A DNA stretch of 25,510 nucleotides from a virus. Shown here in pieces: positions 10,840-20,198 of the stretch. The position numbers were made by a program, and so were the translations under genes. Each line of letters starts with the position of its first letter. Position 1 is the stretch's first letter. The stretch is taken from the IMG/VR virus record IMGVR_UViG_3300010379_000051, positions 1-25,510 of that record; one strand, written 5' to 3'. The notes beneath the pieces were generated by a model. That model saw only the letters and a list, made by a program, of their open reading frames with translations, was not told where the DNA came from and ran no database searches.

Positions 10840-12672
10840 CTACCTCTTGGGCTGGTTCGTGCCACCAGCAGCGCTTGTGCTACGGCCGCGCTTGAGCAGG
10901 TCGCGGAGCATCTTCTCCACGTCCTCGGCCTTGGTGTTCTTGTCCACGTTGAAGTGGACTTGGTCGATGTGGACGCCAGCACTCTGAATCTGTTGCACCA
11001 GCTCCTTGAAGACCTCGCGCTGTGTGGCCGTAGCATTCGTCTCAACGCGTACAGATGCGTATGCAGACTTCTTGGCTCCGGCGTCGGTTGTGAGTCCTGC
11101 AAGTGCACCACCAGCCTGGGTCAGGCCATTAAGTGAACGCGCTTCGGTGTTGAGGCCGCTGGCCGTATGCCCGGTGGTGGCGAGGTCCATCATCGACGCG
11201 CCGAGGTCTGTCGTAGCATCGGCGAGCTTCCGCATCCATGGCACGGAATCGATGAGCTTATTGAGGAGCAAGCCGATGCCGTATCCGGCTGCGGCCGCTC
11301 CGATAACCAGACCAGCAGGCCCGAGCAGCGGTGCCACTACCGCCCACAGGCTCTGCGCGTACATCATCGCCCCAAGTGCCCACGTCCTGAACAGCGGAGC
11401 CATACCAAGCGTCTTTAACGCTGCCGCCGTCAAGGCTACAGACTCGATAGCTTTACCGACGACGCCGATGCCCTGAGCCGTGGCCGTCCCTGCTACGATG
11501 ACTTCAGCAGGCACCTTGGCTACCAAACCGAGTGCTCCATTGAACGCCGGGAGCCACTTGTCGGCGACCTCCGCTCCGGCGTTCGCGAAGTGGTTCTTGA
11601 TGAGCTCGAGCCTGTACTTGGTGGTCTGTTCCATCTGCTCGGCTTGCGTAGCGGCAGTCCCGGCAGCGTTGCTGTAGGTTTCCCCAAGCTTGGTGATGTC
11701 GCCACCAGTCTGCTTGAAGAACTGCGCCATTGCCGCGCCACGAGGACCGAGGCGTTCCATTAAGAGCGCGGCCCGTGCTTGGTCCGAGTGCATCTTGTTG
11801 AAGTCGTTGCCCACGTCCTTCATGTAGGTCTTGTAATCGACGCCAGCCTTGGTGGCCTTCTGCATCGACATCATGAGACCCTGCATCGCGAGGCGGCCAG
11901 TCAAGCCAGCCTTCTCGAAACCGACCATCACGCCGCTGATTTCACCGAAATTCAGGCCAGCGGACTTGGCCATAGGGGCGATGCGCGCCATAGGGCCAAG
12001 GAGCGCATCAACGGTGATGTTGGCGTCGCCCGTGGCCTTTGCCACGGTGTCCATGACAGCAGGCATGCCCTTCGCCTCAATGCCGAAGGCCTTTGCGGCC
12101 TGCTCGACTTTGAGGTAAGTGCTCGTGAGGTCGGAATTCTTGGCGATGGCGAGGTCTTTGGCCGCGTTCATCACGGAGTTGGCGGTCTCGTTGTCCTCGC
12201 CCATCTTCAAGACCCGCGCACCAACCGACTGAATCTGCTCGGCATTGAACTTGCTGCCCTCGGCCATCTTGTACGACGCTTCGGTGAGCTCGTTGATGCT
12301 CTCCTTGCTTACTTGGCTAGCGAACCCGAGCGACGTCACCTGCTGTTCCATCTCCATGGCCGCTTCAGCGCCCTTAAAGATGGACGCACCGACCGCCACT
12401 CCGGCGACCGATGTTTCCTCTAGCTCGTGGACCAAATCGCCCACTTTGAAGGAATTCAGGGATTCGTAGCCTTCCTTAAGCTTACCAAAGAACCCGCCAC
12501 CTTCGGCGTCGTGCTCCGCTTTCTCGCTCGTGTCACCGAGCTCATGCATCTTGTCGTTGACGCCGGAGATAGCTTGAGCCAGAGCGTTGGCGGCCTCCTG
12601 CATACGGCCGACCGCCGACGAGAATTCGTCGCGTGCTTCAATTGGGATTACAACGCCTTCGCCTTCAGACAT
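10840..12672 (-). CDS. tail tape measure protein
   Basis: 610 residues, opening MSEGEGVVIPIEARDEFSSA, a common tape-measure start. The ATG overlaps the TAA of the frameshifted chaperone product (TAATG). Residues about 85-330 hold a TP901-type tape-measure core (GASIFKGAEAAMEMEQQVTS, then MAEGSKFNAEQIQSVGARVL, MPAVMDTVAKATGDANI and SAGLNFGEISGVMVGFEKAG, LTGRLAMQGLMMSMQKATKA). Hydrophobic stretches follow near 440-475 (LWAVVAPLLGPAGLVIGAAA), as usual for proteins that later reach the host membrane. With about 0.15 nm per residue the tail would be near 90 nm (inference). No peptidase domain is visible. It ends in TAG. Confidence 0.9.
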   Translation of the reverse strand: MSEGEGVVIPIEARDEFSSAVGRMQEAANALAQAISGVNDKMHELGDTSEKAEHDAEGGGFFGKLKEGYESLNSFKVGDLVHELEETSVAGVAVGASIFKGAEAAMEMEQQVTSLGFASQVSKESINELTEASYKMAEGSKFNAEQIQSVGARVLKMGEDNETANSVMNAAKDLAIAKNSDLTSTYLKVEQAAKAFGIEAKGMPAVMDTVAKATGDANITVDALLGPMARIAPMAKSAGLNFGEISGVMVGFEKAGLTGRLAMQGLMMSMQKATKAGVDYKTYMKDVGNDFNKMHSDQARAALLMERLGPRGAAMAQFFKQTGGDITKLGETYSNAAGTAATQAEQMEQTTKYRLELIKNHFANAGAEVADKWLPAFNGALGLVAKVPAEVIVAGTATAQGIGVVGKAIESVALTAAALKTLGMAPLFRTWALGAMMYAQSLWAVVAPLLGPAGLVIGAAAAGYGIGLLLNKLIDSVPWMRKLADATTDLGASMMDLATTGHTASGLNTEARSLNGLTQAGGALAGLTTDAGAKKSAYASVRVETNATATQREVFKELVQQIQSAGVHIDQVHFNVDKNTKAEDVEKMLRDLLKRGRSTSAAGGTNQPKR

Positions 12673-12875
12673 TACGTCAGGTCCTCGTAGGGCGACTTGA
12701 TGCTGCCCGTTCCATTACCTTCAACGCTGACCTTCAGCTTCTTCTGGCCCACCCTAACCGCGAGGACGTGCCACAAATAGCGCACGTCCTCGGGCATATC
12801 CAGAATCTCGTCGAGTGTGAACTGGCCAGGGAACTCGCCGACAATAGAAGCGATGTGCTCGGTCAGCGGTTCACG
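12672..12875 (-). CDS. tail assembly chaperone, -1 frameshift extension (gpGT-type)
   Basis: This frame has no start codon of its own. It runs from the slippery site in the upstream gene to a TAA that overlaps the tape-measure ATG. If ribosomes slip back one base on T TTT TTC (12881-12875), the next codons read REPLTEHIASIVGEFPGQF, TLDEILDMPEDVRYLWHVL, AVRVGQKKLKVSVEG and SIKSPYEDLT. The total is 67 added residues, giving a fusion of 197 residues. The order chaperone - frameshift - tape measure is conserved in long-tailed phages (lambda G/GT, P2 E/E'), where both products are needed at a fixed ratio to fold the tape measure. Confidence 0.88.
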   Translation of the reverse strand, partial: REPLTEHIASIVGEFPGQFTLDEILDMPEDVRYLWHVLAVRVGQKKLKVSVEGNGTGSIKSPYEDLT

Positions 12876-13264
12876 AAAAAAGCGTCGAGGTCCTTCTCGG
12901 TGACCGAGTAGCGTCCGGCCCGGTTGAAGCGGCTATAGACCTCGTGGAGCAGGTCCAGGTCTTCGTTGCTCAGGGCCGTCAGCTCGTCCATCTCGAATTG
13001 TCTGGCCACGATGGACATGGTCGCCGGGGCATCCTTGGGCGGCAGGATGGTGACGGTCTGCCGGATGCACTCCATGGTGAACATGTAGCCCTGCTTTGCC
13101 GTGTCGTAGAGCTTCTGCGCGATGAGCTGGTGCCGCCCGGTCGAGCGGACCATCTCGATGCGCTTTTCGCTCACCGGGAGGGTGAACACGAGCTTGCCCG
13201 TGGTCTTGGCCTCGGTGAGTGCCGCGACCAACGGTGAGACTTTCTGCTTCTCGTCGACTTCCAT
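12863..13264 (-). CDS. tail assembly chaperone, short form (gpG-type)
   Basis: 133 residues. ATG 13264 is preceded by AAGGGGAG at good spacing. The protein begins with an acidic-lysine stretch, has a beta segment GKLVFTLPVSEKRIEMVRST, and a helical second half FEMDELTALSNEDLDLLHEV YSRF (two parts). This matches the size and makeup of gpG-like chaperones that precede the tape measure. The gene ends at TGA 12863-12865, just 10 bases after the slippery heptamer, so most product is the short form. Upstream is the tail tube gene, separated by a 97-base gap that contains the branched structure and a hairpin over the SD. Confidence 0.82.
   Translation of the reverse strand: MEVDEKQKVSPLVAALTEAKTTGKLVFTLPVSEKRIEMVRSTGRHQLIAQKLYDTAKQGYMFTMECIRQTVTILPPKDAPATMSIVARQFEMDELTALSNEDLDLLHEVYSRFNRAGRYSVTEKDLDAFFVNR
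12875..12881 (-). promoter_or_regulatory. programmed -1 ribosomal frameshift site T TTT TTC
   Basis: The zero frame reads GAC GCT TTT TTC GTG, so the heptamer T TTT TTC has exactly the X XXY YYZ phase. Both tRNAs can re-pair on TTT TTT after a -1 shift. An SD-like AAGGA lies nine bases upstream (12895-12891), a spacing similar to the stimulatory SD of dnaX. The -1 frame stays open for 67 codons up to the tape-measure start. P2-like phages use a nearly identical T TTT TTG site at the same place. Confidence 0.9.
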
Positions 13265-13271
13265 GATGCTC

Positions 13272-13285
13272 CCCTTTCCGAAGGG
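13272..13285 (-). promoter_or_regulatory. small hairpin overlapping the chaperone SD
   Basis: On the minus strand CCCTT (13285-13281), a CGGA loop and AAGGG (13276-13272) form a perfect five-pair stem. The AAGGG arm is most of the SD (AAGGGGAG) of the chaperone gene starting at 13264. Folding would hide the site and lower initiation. The function is inference. Confidence 0.45.
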
Positions 13286-13299
13286 TGCCCGGTTTAGGT

Positions 13300-13354
13300 C
13301 CTAGGGCGGCTGAGCGCCGGACACGCTCCCTCTCGCGAGAGGTGCCGCCCTAGG
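13300..13354 (-). other. branched inverted-repeat structure (predicted three-way junction)
   Basis: Outer arms 13300-13310 and 13344-13354 are perfect 11-base inverted repeats (cctagggcggc and gccgccctagg). Inside are two further hairpins: gagcg 13312-13316 with cgctc 13324-13328, and the perfect 14-base palindrome cctctcgcgagagg at 13329-13342. Single unpaired bases separate the stems. In RNA this is a compact three-way junction in the gap between the tail tube stop (13362) and the chaperone start (13264). No U-run follows, so it is not a simple intrinsic terminator. It may set mRNA stability or processing after the highly expressed tube gene. Confidence 0.75.
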
Positions 13355-13361
13355 TCGTGGG

Positions 13362-13823
13362 TCAGGCCGTCGCGTTCGGCGAGGTCGTGGTGCCGGGGTC
13401 GTAGCCGCCGTCGGCCACGCACTCGAGCCTGACGTTCTTGATGTCGTCCGGGCCGCCCGTCGCCGTCTCAAAGTCGTGGATGAGCACGCCGAAGTAGGTC
13501 TCGCGGGTCACCGTGTCAGGCGACTTGGTCGTGATGATGACCGTGAAGCGGGGAGGCTTGATGTTCGTGGGCGACCCGGCCTTGAACACGCCATTGTTGC
13601 CCCAGATGAGCCGGACCAGCTCGACGTCAATCCAGCCCTTCTCGATGGACAGGTTGTAGGTCTTGCGCCCGTCCAGCGTCTTGGGGATTTCCTGCCCCAG
13701 CGGGTCGTACTGCTTCGTGTTGATTTTGTGCTTCTGCGTCACCTTCTCGAACTCGCCCACGTTCTGGCCCTTAAGGACCACGGTGACGTGCTTGCCAAGG
13801 GCCGGATCTTTCACAAAGGGCAT
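13362..13823 (-). CDS. tail tube protein (probable)
   Basis: 153 residues with a very strong SD (AAAGGAGGG) before ATG 13823, as expected for an abundant protein. The sequence is beta-rich: HVTVVLKGQNVGEFEKVTQK, TYNLSIEKGWIDVELVRLIW, PPRFTVIITTKSPDTVTRET and YFGVLIHDFETATGGPDDI, followed by VRLECVADGG. Size, strand content and the 'v.iehg' style central turn agree with inner tube proteins of contractile tails (XkdM-like). The position between sheath and chaperone/tape measure is the standard place. It is separated from the sheath by the HNH gene, which looks inserted. Family assignment relies mostly on context. Confidence 0.72.
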   Translation of the reverse strand: MPFVKDPALGKHVTVVLKGQNVGEFEKVTQKHKINTKQYDPLGQEIPKTLDGRKTYNLSIEKGWIDVELVRLIWGNNGVFKAGSPTNIKPPRFTVIITTKSPDTVTRETYFGVLIHDFETATGGPDDIKNVRLECVADGGYDPGTTTSPNATA

Positions 13824-13834
13824 GACACCCTCCT

Positions 13835-14218
13835 TTAGTGGCAGTACCCGCGAATACCACGGGTGTTATTGCATGTGTGGCAGAGTATCTCATACCCAGC
13901 CGGGAAATCATTCTTTTTGAGCCAGACGTAAAACCTGTAACCGGCCCTGTCTTTGCCCATGCCGATATCGTTGCGATGCTTGTTGCCACCACCACCGATA
14001 TGCTCAATCGACAGCATGTCAACGTCGTTGGTCTTCTCAGGACAGAGTGGGCAATTGCAATGCGGCACTCCGCCTGAATAGTGGGCAAAGACCTCGGTTT
14101 TCAACCTTGTAGCGTGTTCTTTCATCTGTGCTAATATCTTAATTCTGTCTCGTTTGTACACCTCTTTGCGGGCGTTTGGGTGGCGCTCTTTCCAACGCTT
14201 ATAAGAGGCCCGGCTCAT
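13835..14218 (-). CDS. HNH endonuclease, free-standing homing type
   Basis: 127 residues. The N-terminal ~45 residues are basic and helical (SRASYKRWKERHPNARKEVY). The catalytic part shows CNCPLCPEK (Cys56, Cys59), then LSIEHIGGGGNKHRND (Glu72-His73, His81) and the ending GYEILCHTCNNTRGIRGYCH (Cys113, Cys116, Asn117). The two Cys pairs would hold a zinc ion, and the EHI and CN segments form the beta-beta-alpha metal site. Such small HNH proteins nick or cut DNA and often sit between phage late genes as selfish elements. Base composition is visibly more AT-rich than in sheath and tube. The ATG overlaps the sheath TAA (TAATG), an insertion that leaves both neighbours intact. Confidence 0.82.
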   Translation of the reverse strand: MSRASYKRWKERHPNARKEVYKRDRIKILAQMKEHATRLKTEVFAHYSGGVPHCNCPLCPEKTNDVDMLSIEHIGGGGNKHRNDIGMGKDRAGYRFYVWLKKNDFPAGYEILCHTCNNTRGIRGYCH

Positions 14219-15165
14219 TACTGGTTGACGACGCTGGAATCGAAGCTTCCGGCGTCGTTGGGCTTTATCCTTATCACGATGAAGTCGGCCGCATAGGTGG
14301 GGAAGATGCCGATGTCCGCGTACAAGAACCCGGCCTCCTGGTCGGCCTGGGACGAGTACACCTTGACGTAGTACTGCTGGATGGCTCCCTGCGCGGCGAG
14401 GCTGTCCATGAAGGCGCTGATGCCCTGCTGCAGCGCGTGCTGGGTGTCGGCGTTGTTCGGGGCGCTGATGAGGTCCTGGTTGCCCTCGGTCACACCGCGC
14501 ACGATTTGGTCGAACAATCGGCGGATGTTGATTTGGGTGAACGGGAAGTCGGTGCCCGTGGTCACACCGTCGAGCAACCTGAAGCCCAGACGGCCCTTGT
14601 TGGTCGCCACGACCACGCCGCCCTGGATGAGGGTCGCGAGGTCGGCGTCGTTCACCGGGACCTCGAAGCCAAGGATGCCCGTGAGCAGCTGATTGCTGGG
14701 CGAGATGTACGGGTCGAGGGTAGCGATGCGCCCGGCCACGGCGGCCGCCGTGTAGGCCGACGGCACCTTCACGGTCAGGTTCTGCGCAGGGTCGTACACC
14801 TGCATGCCAGGGTAGCAGAGCACGGCGCGGTCGGCGCTCAGCGCGGCCGCACGGGTCAGCGTGGTCGAGACGCTGTCGCCCAACGCACCGCCGACGACCG
14901 CGATGCGGTCGCCCTTAGCGTTGGCCTGCACGACCATCGCGGTGTGGACGGCCGCGCTGCTCTGGCCAGCGGCCACGAGCAGGTTCACGTCCTGGTTCTC
15001 CAAGGCATAGAAACCAGTGGCCGTGGGCGCGGCGACGCCGATGTAGTCGGCATCGGTGGTGACCTGCCCGTTGGTGCCGCCGGACAGGACCGTCTGCGCC
15101 AGGATGGCAGGCAGGTTCGGCGACGCGCCATCCGTCACGACCAGCAGCGTGCTGTTGGCGTTCAT
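14218..15165 (-). CDS. tail sheath protein, C-terminal part (after frameshift)
   Basis: This frame carries the C-terminal 315 residues of the contractile tail sheath. It begins at an internal ATG (15165) with NANSTLLVVTDGASPNLPAI, which continues the domain left at SRYLPT in the other frame. The C-terminal sheath signature is clear: TQINIRRLFDQIVRGVTEGN, then LISAPNNADTQHALQQGISA FMDSLAAQGAI (two parts) and a final beta-strand segment. Sheath subunits polymerise around the tube and contract to drive injection. Whether this part is made separately is doubtful: there is no SD in front of 15165. Together with the N-terminal part the protein would be about 550 residues, a normal sheath length. 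Confidence 0.85.
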   Translation of the reverse strand: MNANSTLLVVTDGASPNLPAILAQTVLSGGTNGQVTTDADYIGVAAPTATGFYALENQDVNLLVAAGQSSAAVHTAMVVQANAKGDRIAVVGGALGDSVSTTLTRAAALSADRAVLCYPGMQVYDPAQNLTVKVPSAYTAAAVAGRIATLDPYISPSNQLLTGILGFEVPVNDADLATLIQGGVVVATNKGRLGFRLLDGVTTGTDFPFTQINIRRLFDQIVRGVTEGNQDLISAPNNADTQHALQQGISAFMDSLAAQGAIQQYYVKVYSSQADQEAGFLYADIGIFPTYAADFIVIRIKPNDAGSFDSSVVNQ

Positions 15166-19239: not shown

Positions 19240-19267
19240 AAAAAGGTGCCAGTTTTCGACTACTGGC
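19240..19267 (-). terminator. possible intrinsic terminator downstream of the capsid gene
   Basis: On the minus strand GCCAGT (19267-19262), an eight-base loop and ACTGGC (19253-19248) form a perfect six-pair stem, followed after three bases by TTTTT (19244-19240). It lies 20 bases after the capsid TAG and just before the SD of the zinc-ribbon gene. The stem is short, so partial termination is more likely than full. Confidence 0.55.
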
Positions 19268-19286
19268 GAAGTCAATACGTTCAGAC

Positions 19287-20198
19287 CTAGAAGTTGTAGG
19301 CCTGGATTCGCAGCGCAGCGTTCGCGTTCCGGAAGAACGGGCACACGCGCTGGTACACCAGCCACTTCATCAGGCGACCGTCCAAGGTCGGCTGAACGGT
19401 CAACGGCTCGCGCTCCACGAGGCGGCCGAGCTCCACTGAGTCCATGACCCAGATGGAACCCGTATCCACGAGAGGCGACCAGATGACGTTCAGGCCCAGA
19501 GCGCTCTTGAGCACACCCGTCTCCTGCACTTCGCGGGTGCCGAAGTTGAGGTAGAACAGGAAGGCTTGCTGAGAGCTCAGGATGCCCAGCTGATAGGGGT
19601 TCATCAGCAGGGTATCGGGCTTGTAGGACTTCTGACGGAGGTAGCCCGAGACCTTCAGCAGGTCCGAAGCCGTCGGGTCAACGCCGCTCGGGAGCTGGTA
19701 CAGCCCCGTCGAGGCATTGAACGCCGGGTTCGGGCCAGGAGCAGGCACCCCGTTAGGGGCGATTGCTTGGTCGAAGAGCCGCAGGAACTCCAGGTCCTCC
19801 TTGACCGCCATCTCGCGCCCGGCATCGTTGAGGATGTCGGCGGCCGCGTCGAACTGAGCATCGAGCAGGTCAGCCATGTGGATTTCGGGATGGACTTCGA
19901 AATCGTAAGGCGTGACGATGACCCAGGGGTAGCGCACGATTTGGTCGATTTCCTCGCCGTAGCGGGGGATGACCAAGGCGCGCTGACGAGCTTTGCGCTG
20001 GTAACGGTAGGAAGGTCCATTGTCGAAGCGATCGATCTGGAACAGCTTACGTCCGAAGCTGTCTTCGATCATCGTCTCGGCGATGGGCAGGATCGCGGCC
20101 TGAGCCATGTGCTGAGCGAACTCAGTCTGGCTCATTTCCGCTTGCGCCATCATCAGAAGGTTGAACTTCTCCTGATTGCTTAGCACTTTATTGTTCAT
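19287..20198 (-). CDS. major capsid protein, HK97-fold (probable)
   Basis: 303 residues with the extended ribosome site GGAGGTGA before ATG 20198. The order of elements matches HK97-fold capsid proteins of the shorter type: an N-terminal helix (LLMMAQAEMSQTEFAQHMAQ), a beta segment (FQIDRFDNGPSYRYQRKARQ), an E-loop-like stretch, then the spine-helix and P-domain region (ADLLDAQFDAAADILNDAGR, EMAVKEDLEFLRLFDQAI). A second domain has YKPDTLLMNPYQLGILSSQQ and the closing FGTREVQETGVLKSALGLNV, MDSVELGRLVEREPLTVQP. Phage context is strong: protease, scaffold-like and decoration-like genes just upstream and neck genes downstream. Ends in TAG, with an in-frame TGA two codons further. Confidence 0.8.
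   Translation of the reverse strand: MNNKVLSNQEKFNLLMMAQAEMSQTEFAQHMAQAAILPIAETMIEDSFGRKLFQIDRFDNGPSYRYQRKARQRALVIPRYGEEIDQIVRYPWVIVTPYDFEVHPEIHMADLLDAQFDAAADILNDAGREMAVKEDLEFLRLFDQAIAPNGVPAPGPNPAFNASTGLYQLPSGVDPTASDLLKVSGYLRQKSYKPDTLLMNPYQLGILSSQQAFLFYLNFGTREVQETGVLKSALGLNVIWSPLVDTGSIWVMDSVELGRLVEREPLTVQPTLDGRLMKWLVYQRVCPFFRNANAALRIQAYNF

Follow-up and report, generated by a model that had tools for sequence, protein, structure and literature searches.

A phage needs many tube subunits from its tail operon but only few copies of the chaperone and the tape-measure protein, which are encoded in the same operon. At the junction between the tube and chaperone genes, a GC-rich stem recurs in P2, 186, HK97, N15, TM4, D29, Bxb1, and others, as we found on examining well-known phages that were picked regardless of whether they carry hairpins there. 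The phage 186 record annotates this junction as 'tI; partial terminator of pJ transcript', and the HK97 and N15 records annotate putative terminators at it; strong stems are found there in P2, TM4, Bxb1, D29, and further actinophages, and some of the stems in these other phages contain G-U pairs. The junctions of lambda, Mu, D3112, and SfV are stemless, and all of these have gaps of at most 15 nt. For the Cluster O mycobacteriophages, Corndog among them, a terminator has been reported downstream of the major tail gene (PMC4351075). In Kampy, RNA-seq places the top late expression at genes 14–22, with gene 22 encoding the major tail subunit (PMC4626039), and we find a long GC stem directly after gene 22.

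Intercistronic hairpins behind abundant transcripts are also known from bacteria. In E. coli, a stable hairpin without a U-tract lies immediately before the end of 26 of the 34 upstream operon segments found to be stabilised (PMC5927463). Here, we describe an element at the tube-chaperone junction of an uncultured virus that shares its location with these systems and has a branched form.

Results

The tail operon and its only non-coding gap

The window analysed here is the whole 25,510-base record of an uncultured virus, and it carries a head and contractile-tail operon on the minus strand, with genes for the major head protein (19287–20198), neck proteins, sheath, tube, chaperone, tape measure (10840–12672), and baseplate. 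The tube gene (13362–13823, minus strand, 153 aa) was assigned by its position between the sheath and the chaperone and tape measure genes. Its product gives a weak match to a PHROG family of unknown function and, because its predicted structure was unusable (pLDDT 31), the assignment rests on gene order. The tail assembly chaperone is recognizable from its position and from a terminal slippery TTTTTTC with an open −1 frame; its frame-0 product of 133 aa is encoded at 12863–13264 (minus), and the −1 extension of the gpG/gpGT type at approximately 12673–12862 (minus) has a homologous counterpart in a related virus. Since this extension accounts for the apparent gap at 12673–12862, the 97 nt at 13265–13361 between the tube and chaperone genes are the sole non-coding gap from tube to tape measure, in line with the first-pass annotation of the window, which took the element to fill the only long gap of the tail operon.

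The related virus, IMGVR_UViG_3300045051_000334 (L002/L037), shares the operon at protein identities of 31–86%; its tube protein is 81% identical and the neighbouring chaperone has fallen to 45%.

Several other features of the operon were noted in passing. The slippery sequence at the chaperone end, together with the conserved −1 extension, constitutes a programmed frameshift of the gpG/gpGT type (12673–12870, minus). The sheath is encoded in two overlapping frames at 14915–15165, where the relative has a single frame of 623 residues, and the split is either an assembly error or a real frameshift. A 127-residue reading frame at 13835–14218 (minus), in the interval between sheath and tube, is either an inserted gene or a chance frame; the relative has a gap of about 20 nt at this place, with no room for it. 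A terminator-like hairpin, GCCAGT...ACTGGC ACCTTTTT, follows the major head gene at 19240–19268 (minus), and with one compensatory pair change it is GCCAGC...GCTGGC ACCTTTTTT in the relative (L037); it is a second element behind the gene of an abundant protein.

A stable three-way junction behind the tube stop codon

The gap contains a 55-nt element at 13300–13354, identified on the minus strand by folding, by inverted-repeat and pattern searches, and by its copy in the relative. Read along the mRNA strand (13354–13300), it is built as P1 (11 bp)–A–P2 (5 bp, loop CGCG)–P3 (5 bp, loop UGUCCGG)–A–P1′, with the sequence CCTAGGGCGGC A CCTCT-CGCG-AGAGG GAGCG-TGTCCGG-CGCTC A GCCGCCCTAGG. The 5′ arm of P1 (CCTAGGGCGGC, 13344–13354) and its 3′ arm (GCCGCCCTAGG, 13300–13310) form a perfect 11-bp inverted repeat with a separation of 33 nt, enclosing the P2 hairpin (13329–13342) and the P3 hairpin (13312–13328), just as had been proposed from inspection of the letters. 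The accompanying claim that single bases space the stems holds for the two junctions with P1, each a single A, and fails for P2 and P3, which abut without a spacer. Seven nucleotides separate the tube stop codon from P1, and 35 nt separate P1 from the chaperone ATG.

Folding of the gene-sense RNA gave a minimum free energy of −39.6 kcal/mol for 66 nt (z = −4.4), which none of 200 shuffles equalled in stability, and the pairs of the element had probabilities of 0.84–1.0 when 60-nt flanks were included. The plus strand folds as well (−37.5 kcal/mol, z = −3.1), bearing out the expectation that the element would fold on either strand. A strict three-way pattern (P1 perfect and no shorter than 8 bp, around two hairpins with perfect stems of 5 bp or more, and junctions of at most 3 nt) had a single match in the window and none in 300 dinucleotide shuffles of it; in 461 kb of phage DNA, it matched only this element and the orthologous locus.

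The element did not match any Rfam family above the gathering threshold, and neither a tRNA nor a known Rfam RNA was found. A repeated element could be ruled out, there being one copy per genome: a covariance model derived from the copy in the window detected no other copy in the window or in the relative's genome apart from the reverse strand of the window element itself (27 bits). Coding within the element was likewise ruled out, as the reading frames differ and run into stops. Stimulation of readthrough or frameshifting by a structure 6–7 nt past a stop codon was considered and rejected, the extensions being just 3 or 11 residues long with no slippery site seen.

Compensatory changes in all three stems

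The same covariance model, made from the window copy alone, finds the relative's copy with 54.7 bits (E = 6e-10). That copy, CACGGGGCGGC A CCGGA-CGCG-TCCGG GTGAGG-TTTCCGG-CCTCAC A GCCGCCCCGTG ATTTTTAAACCGG, occupies the same tube-chaperone location, is followed by AUUUUU, and places the element 6–7 nt past the tube stop in both phages. All 21 pairs compared are kept: 13 are unchanged, 8 are changed on both sides, and none is broken. Three of the double changes fall in P1, three in P2 (of five pairs), and two in P3 (of five pairs), while slid registers used as a control gave at most one. If substitutions were independent and their number held constant, eight matching changes would have a probability of about 7e-10. 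Of the unpaired bases, 12 of 13 are identical, including the whole CGCG loop of P2 and six of the seven bases of the P3 loop, a proportion that is not significantly above that of the stem pairs (P = 0.11). Since the viral-contig and genome scans turned up a single relative, the evidence of covariation comes from a pair of sequences, albeit diverged ones. Protein scans of viral contigs (with the tube protein and a fragment of it, the head protein and a fragment of it, and the chaperone C-terminus) returned only this relative, protein scans of genomes (head protein and sheath C-terminus) added no other, and RNA-pattern scans of viral contigs yielded chance matches and the same relative.

As judged from these two diverged sequences, the structure is under selection, since its pairs are kept by double changes with none broken and its unpaired bases are near-identical in the relative; the arms are thus neither unconserved nor devoid of compensatory changes, either of which would have spoken against the proposed RNA. 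Template switching can change both arms of a palindrome together, so the stems might in principle have been kept perfect by template-switch repair rather than by functional selection. We regard such a functionless origin as very improbable: three stems, their lengths, the junction adenines, and the loops have all been retained while the chaperone fell to 45% identity, and no such element exists elsewhere in either genome.

A role at the level of DNA, as a cruciform, a symmetrical protein site, or a single-stranded DNA hairpin with an incidental RNA fold, would fit the folding of both strands and the fact that the counted pairs of both copies are all Watson-Crick, with no G-T (or, in RNA, G-U) pair. 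The conserved loops and the conserved position relative to transcription follow the mRNA, however, and therefore make such a role, which the first-pass annotation had allowed for as a protein site, less likely. Neither genome holds a second copy, and at the equivalent junction other phages carry stems with terminator annotations, in some cases containing G-U pairs. Altogether, a DNA-level element appears unlikely.

Comparison with other tube-chaperone junctions

Like 186 tI, which lies between genes I (tube) and H (chaperone), and the FII-E stem of P2, the window element lies in the tube-chaperone interval of a contractile-tail operon, on the coding strand, and is a GC-rich stem just past the tube stop without a long U-run. 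It differs in being a 55-nt three-way junction, where 186 and P2 have a single hairpin of 9–12 bp with a 3-nt loop. No sequence similarity was detected between them, and a search of the phage collection gave no DNA or tube-protein match, P2/186 stem homology included. The putative terminators of HK97 and N15 and the terminator of Corndog are alike in position and stem but are simple hairpins, that of Corndog being followed by TTTCT. A structured tube-chaperone boundary is therefore already known and the branched form is new, so that the earlier description of a 'novel phage RNA' applies to the form and not to the site or the kind of element.

Similar in layout are the actinophages D29, Bxb1, Bonanza, Chucky, Marav, and TM4, which combine a long GC stem with a gap of about 110 nt (97 nt in the window), stems that drift around a stable loop, and complementarity of that loop to downstream sites. 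Their stems are unbranched or nearly so, the loop pairing spans 7–11 bp as against 5–7 bp in the window and its relative, and no sequence homology could be shown.

Loop complementarity to downstream sites

In the window, the P3 loop could pair as a pseudoknot with CCGGGCA (site 1; 13286–13292, minus) over 7 bp including one G-U, a pairing reduced to 5 bp in the relative. Between this site and the chaperone gene, a putative hairpin P4, CCCTT-CGGA-AAGGG (13272–13285, minus), would cover the chaperone Shine-Dalgarno sequence; a similar hairpin is predicted in the relative, without covariation. The P4 loop CGGA, as site 2, is complementary to the UCCG stretch in the P3 loop (UCGGA, 5 bp in the window), and in the relative the loop UUUCCGG matches CCGGA (5 bp) and CGGAGA (6 bp) at the Shine-Dalgarno sequence.

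These pairings raise the alternative of a translational operator, in which the P3 loop would bind either CCGGGCA or the sequence next to the Shine-Dalgarno and repress the chaperone start, possibly under the control of a phage protein or of ribosomes finishing the tube gene. The P3 loop is conserved, both phages have complementary downstream sites and a Shine-Dalgarno within P4, and stem loops in actinophages pair in the same way, with one of the sites at the Shine-Dalgarno or start codon. The T4 gene 32 operator is likewise a phage mRNA structure that may form a pseudoknot ahead of a start site (PMC3014915); it differs in gene, fold, and position, and no ligand is known for the window element. 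Against an operator, the complementarity in the window and its relative is weak (P ≈ 0.06 and 0.15, the former for the window alone), P4 lacks covariation, no protein partner is known, and in Corynebacterium phage EmiRose the stem is present but its loop has no match of this kind. We therefore hold an operator to be a doubtful explanation for this locus.

The pattern is stronger in the actinophages. Apart from EmiRose, all 12 actinophages with long gaps have loop pairing of at least 7 bp at two downstream sites, whereas two-site pairing arises in 0–8% of shuffles per phage; the cluster A phages being related, these represent about four independent lineages. In D29, the loop UGGCGGGCCUU is complementary to the mid-gap GCCCGCCA and, with G-U pairs included, to the chaperone Shine-Dalgarno/start region AAGGUUCGCCA|UG. 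Matching changes of loop and sites distinguish the Mycobacterium, Rhodococcus, Streptomyces, and TM4 types: Rhodococcus phage Bonanza has the loop GGCGGACC with GGUCCGCC and GGUCUGCC, Streptomyces phages Chucky and Marav have GCGGACC with two copies of GGUCCGC, and the loop of TM4, though unrelated, has matching sites of its own. One loop with two sites is also the arrangement in Kampy and, when examined by eye, in UnionJack.

Gaps with a GC stem and two loop-paired sites lie at 2583–2698 in L067, 4502–4624 in L066, 61–176 in L079, 268–384 in L080, 314–436 in L082, and 706–817 in L062. Most of these actinophage gaps also have a conserved ACTTGACA...TGTC hairpin ahead of the GC stem. In Mycobacterium phage UnionJack (L078 106), the annotated GTG start of the chaperone falls inside the stem loop, and the real start is likely an ATG that follows GAAAGGTCTGCC some 60 nt further on.

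We found no paper on such loop-to-start-site pairing in the open-licence literature, and the design may be new. It is conceivable, if still speculative, that many tailed phages carry an undescribed class of cis-acting RNA regulator, built as a long stem or a three-way junction, whose loop toggles between a mid-gap site and the chaperone ribosome-binding site; the parallel to the window and its relative is drawn by analogy.

Discussion

On balance, we favor a cis-acting intercistronic attenuator or 3′-end barrier that permits high tube and low chaperone output as the probable function of the element. It is the simplest account because the gap sits at the boundary between abundant and scarce products and stems or terminators stand at this boundary elsewhere. 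The structure would form in the late tail-operon mRNA immediately 3′ of the tube stop codon, raising the level of the sheath-tube portion of the mRNA above that of the chaperone-tape measure portion. We infer from sequence comparison that it acts in RNA and lowers downstream expression, and likewise by which of two routes it may do so.

The window element has the stable GC-rich hairpin of an intrinsic terminator, without a U-tract directly 3′ of the stem (flank ACCUAAACC), and it is missing from the terminator-scan listing. A stable structure without a U-tract behind an upstream gene is also what characterizes the protective intercistronic hairpins of the puf and malEFG type, which stand behind the more abundant gene and whose effects were measured (PMC5927463), where ours are predicted. 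The window form would thus most likely block 3′–5′ exonucleases after downstream cleavage or Rho-type termination, and the element may in addition, or instead, be a partial terminator, as the U-run on the relative's copy suggests. The absence of a U-run, pointed out in the first-pass annotation, is true of the window copy and not of the relative's, and the two copies may therefore differ in the extent of termination.

Some observations sit less easily with an attenuator or barrier. The covariation comes from one relative, the window copy lacks a U-run, and the counted stems contain no G-U pair, which would fit a DNA-level role too; moreover, the identity of 12 of the 13 unpaired bases is more than would be required of a simple barrier or terminator, whose loops need not be conserved. 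The compensatory stems, the conserved loops, and the stems elsewhere support the broader reading offered at the outset, an RNA-level element behind a highly expressed gene; processing, protection, and attenuation cannot be told apart from sequence.

A maintained RNA structure at the tube-chaperone boundary, together with the recurrence of stems there in unrelated phages, would provide a simple and testable account of how the ratio of these proteins is set, and the element may represent a new RNA family. If the regulator class tentatively proposed above is real, it would switch chaperone translation in a manner coupled to transcript ending, and the window and its relative would represent a branched version of it.
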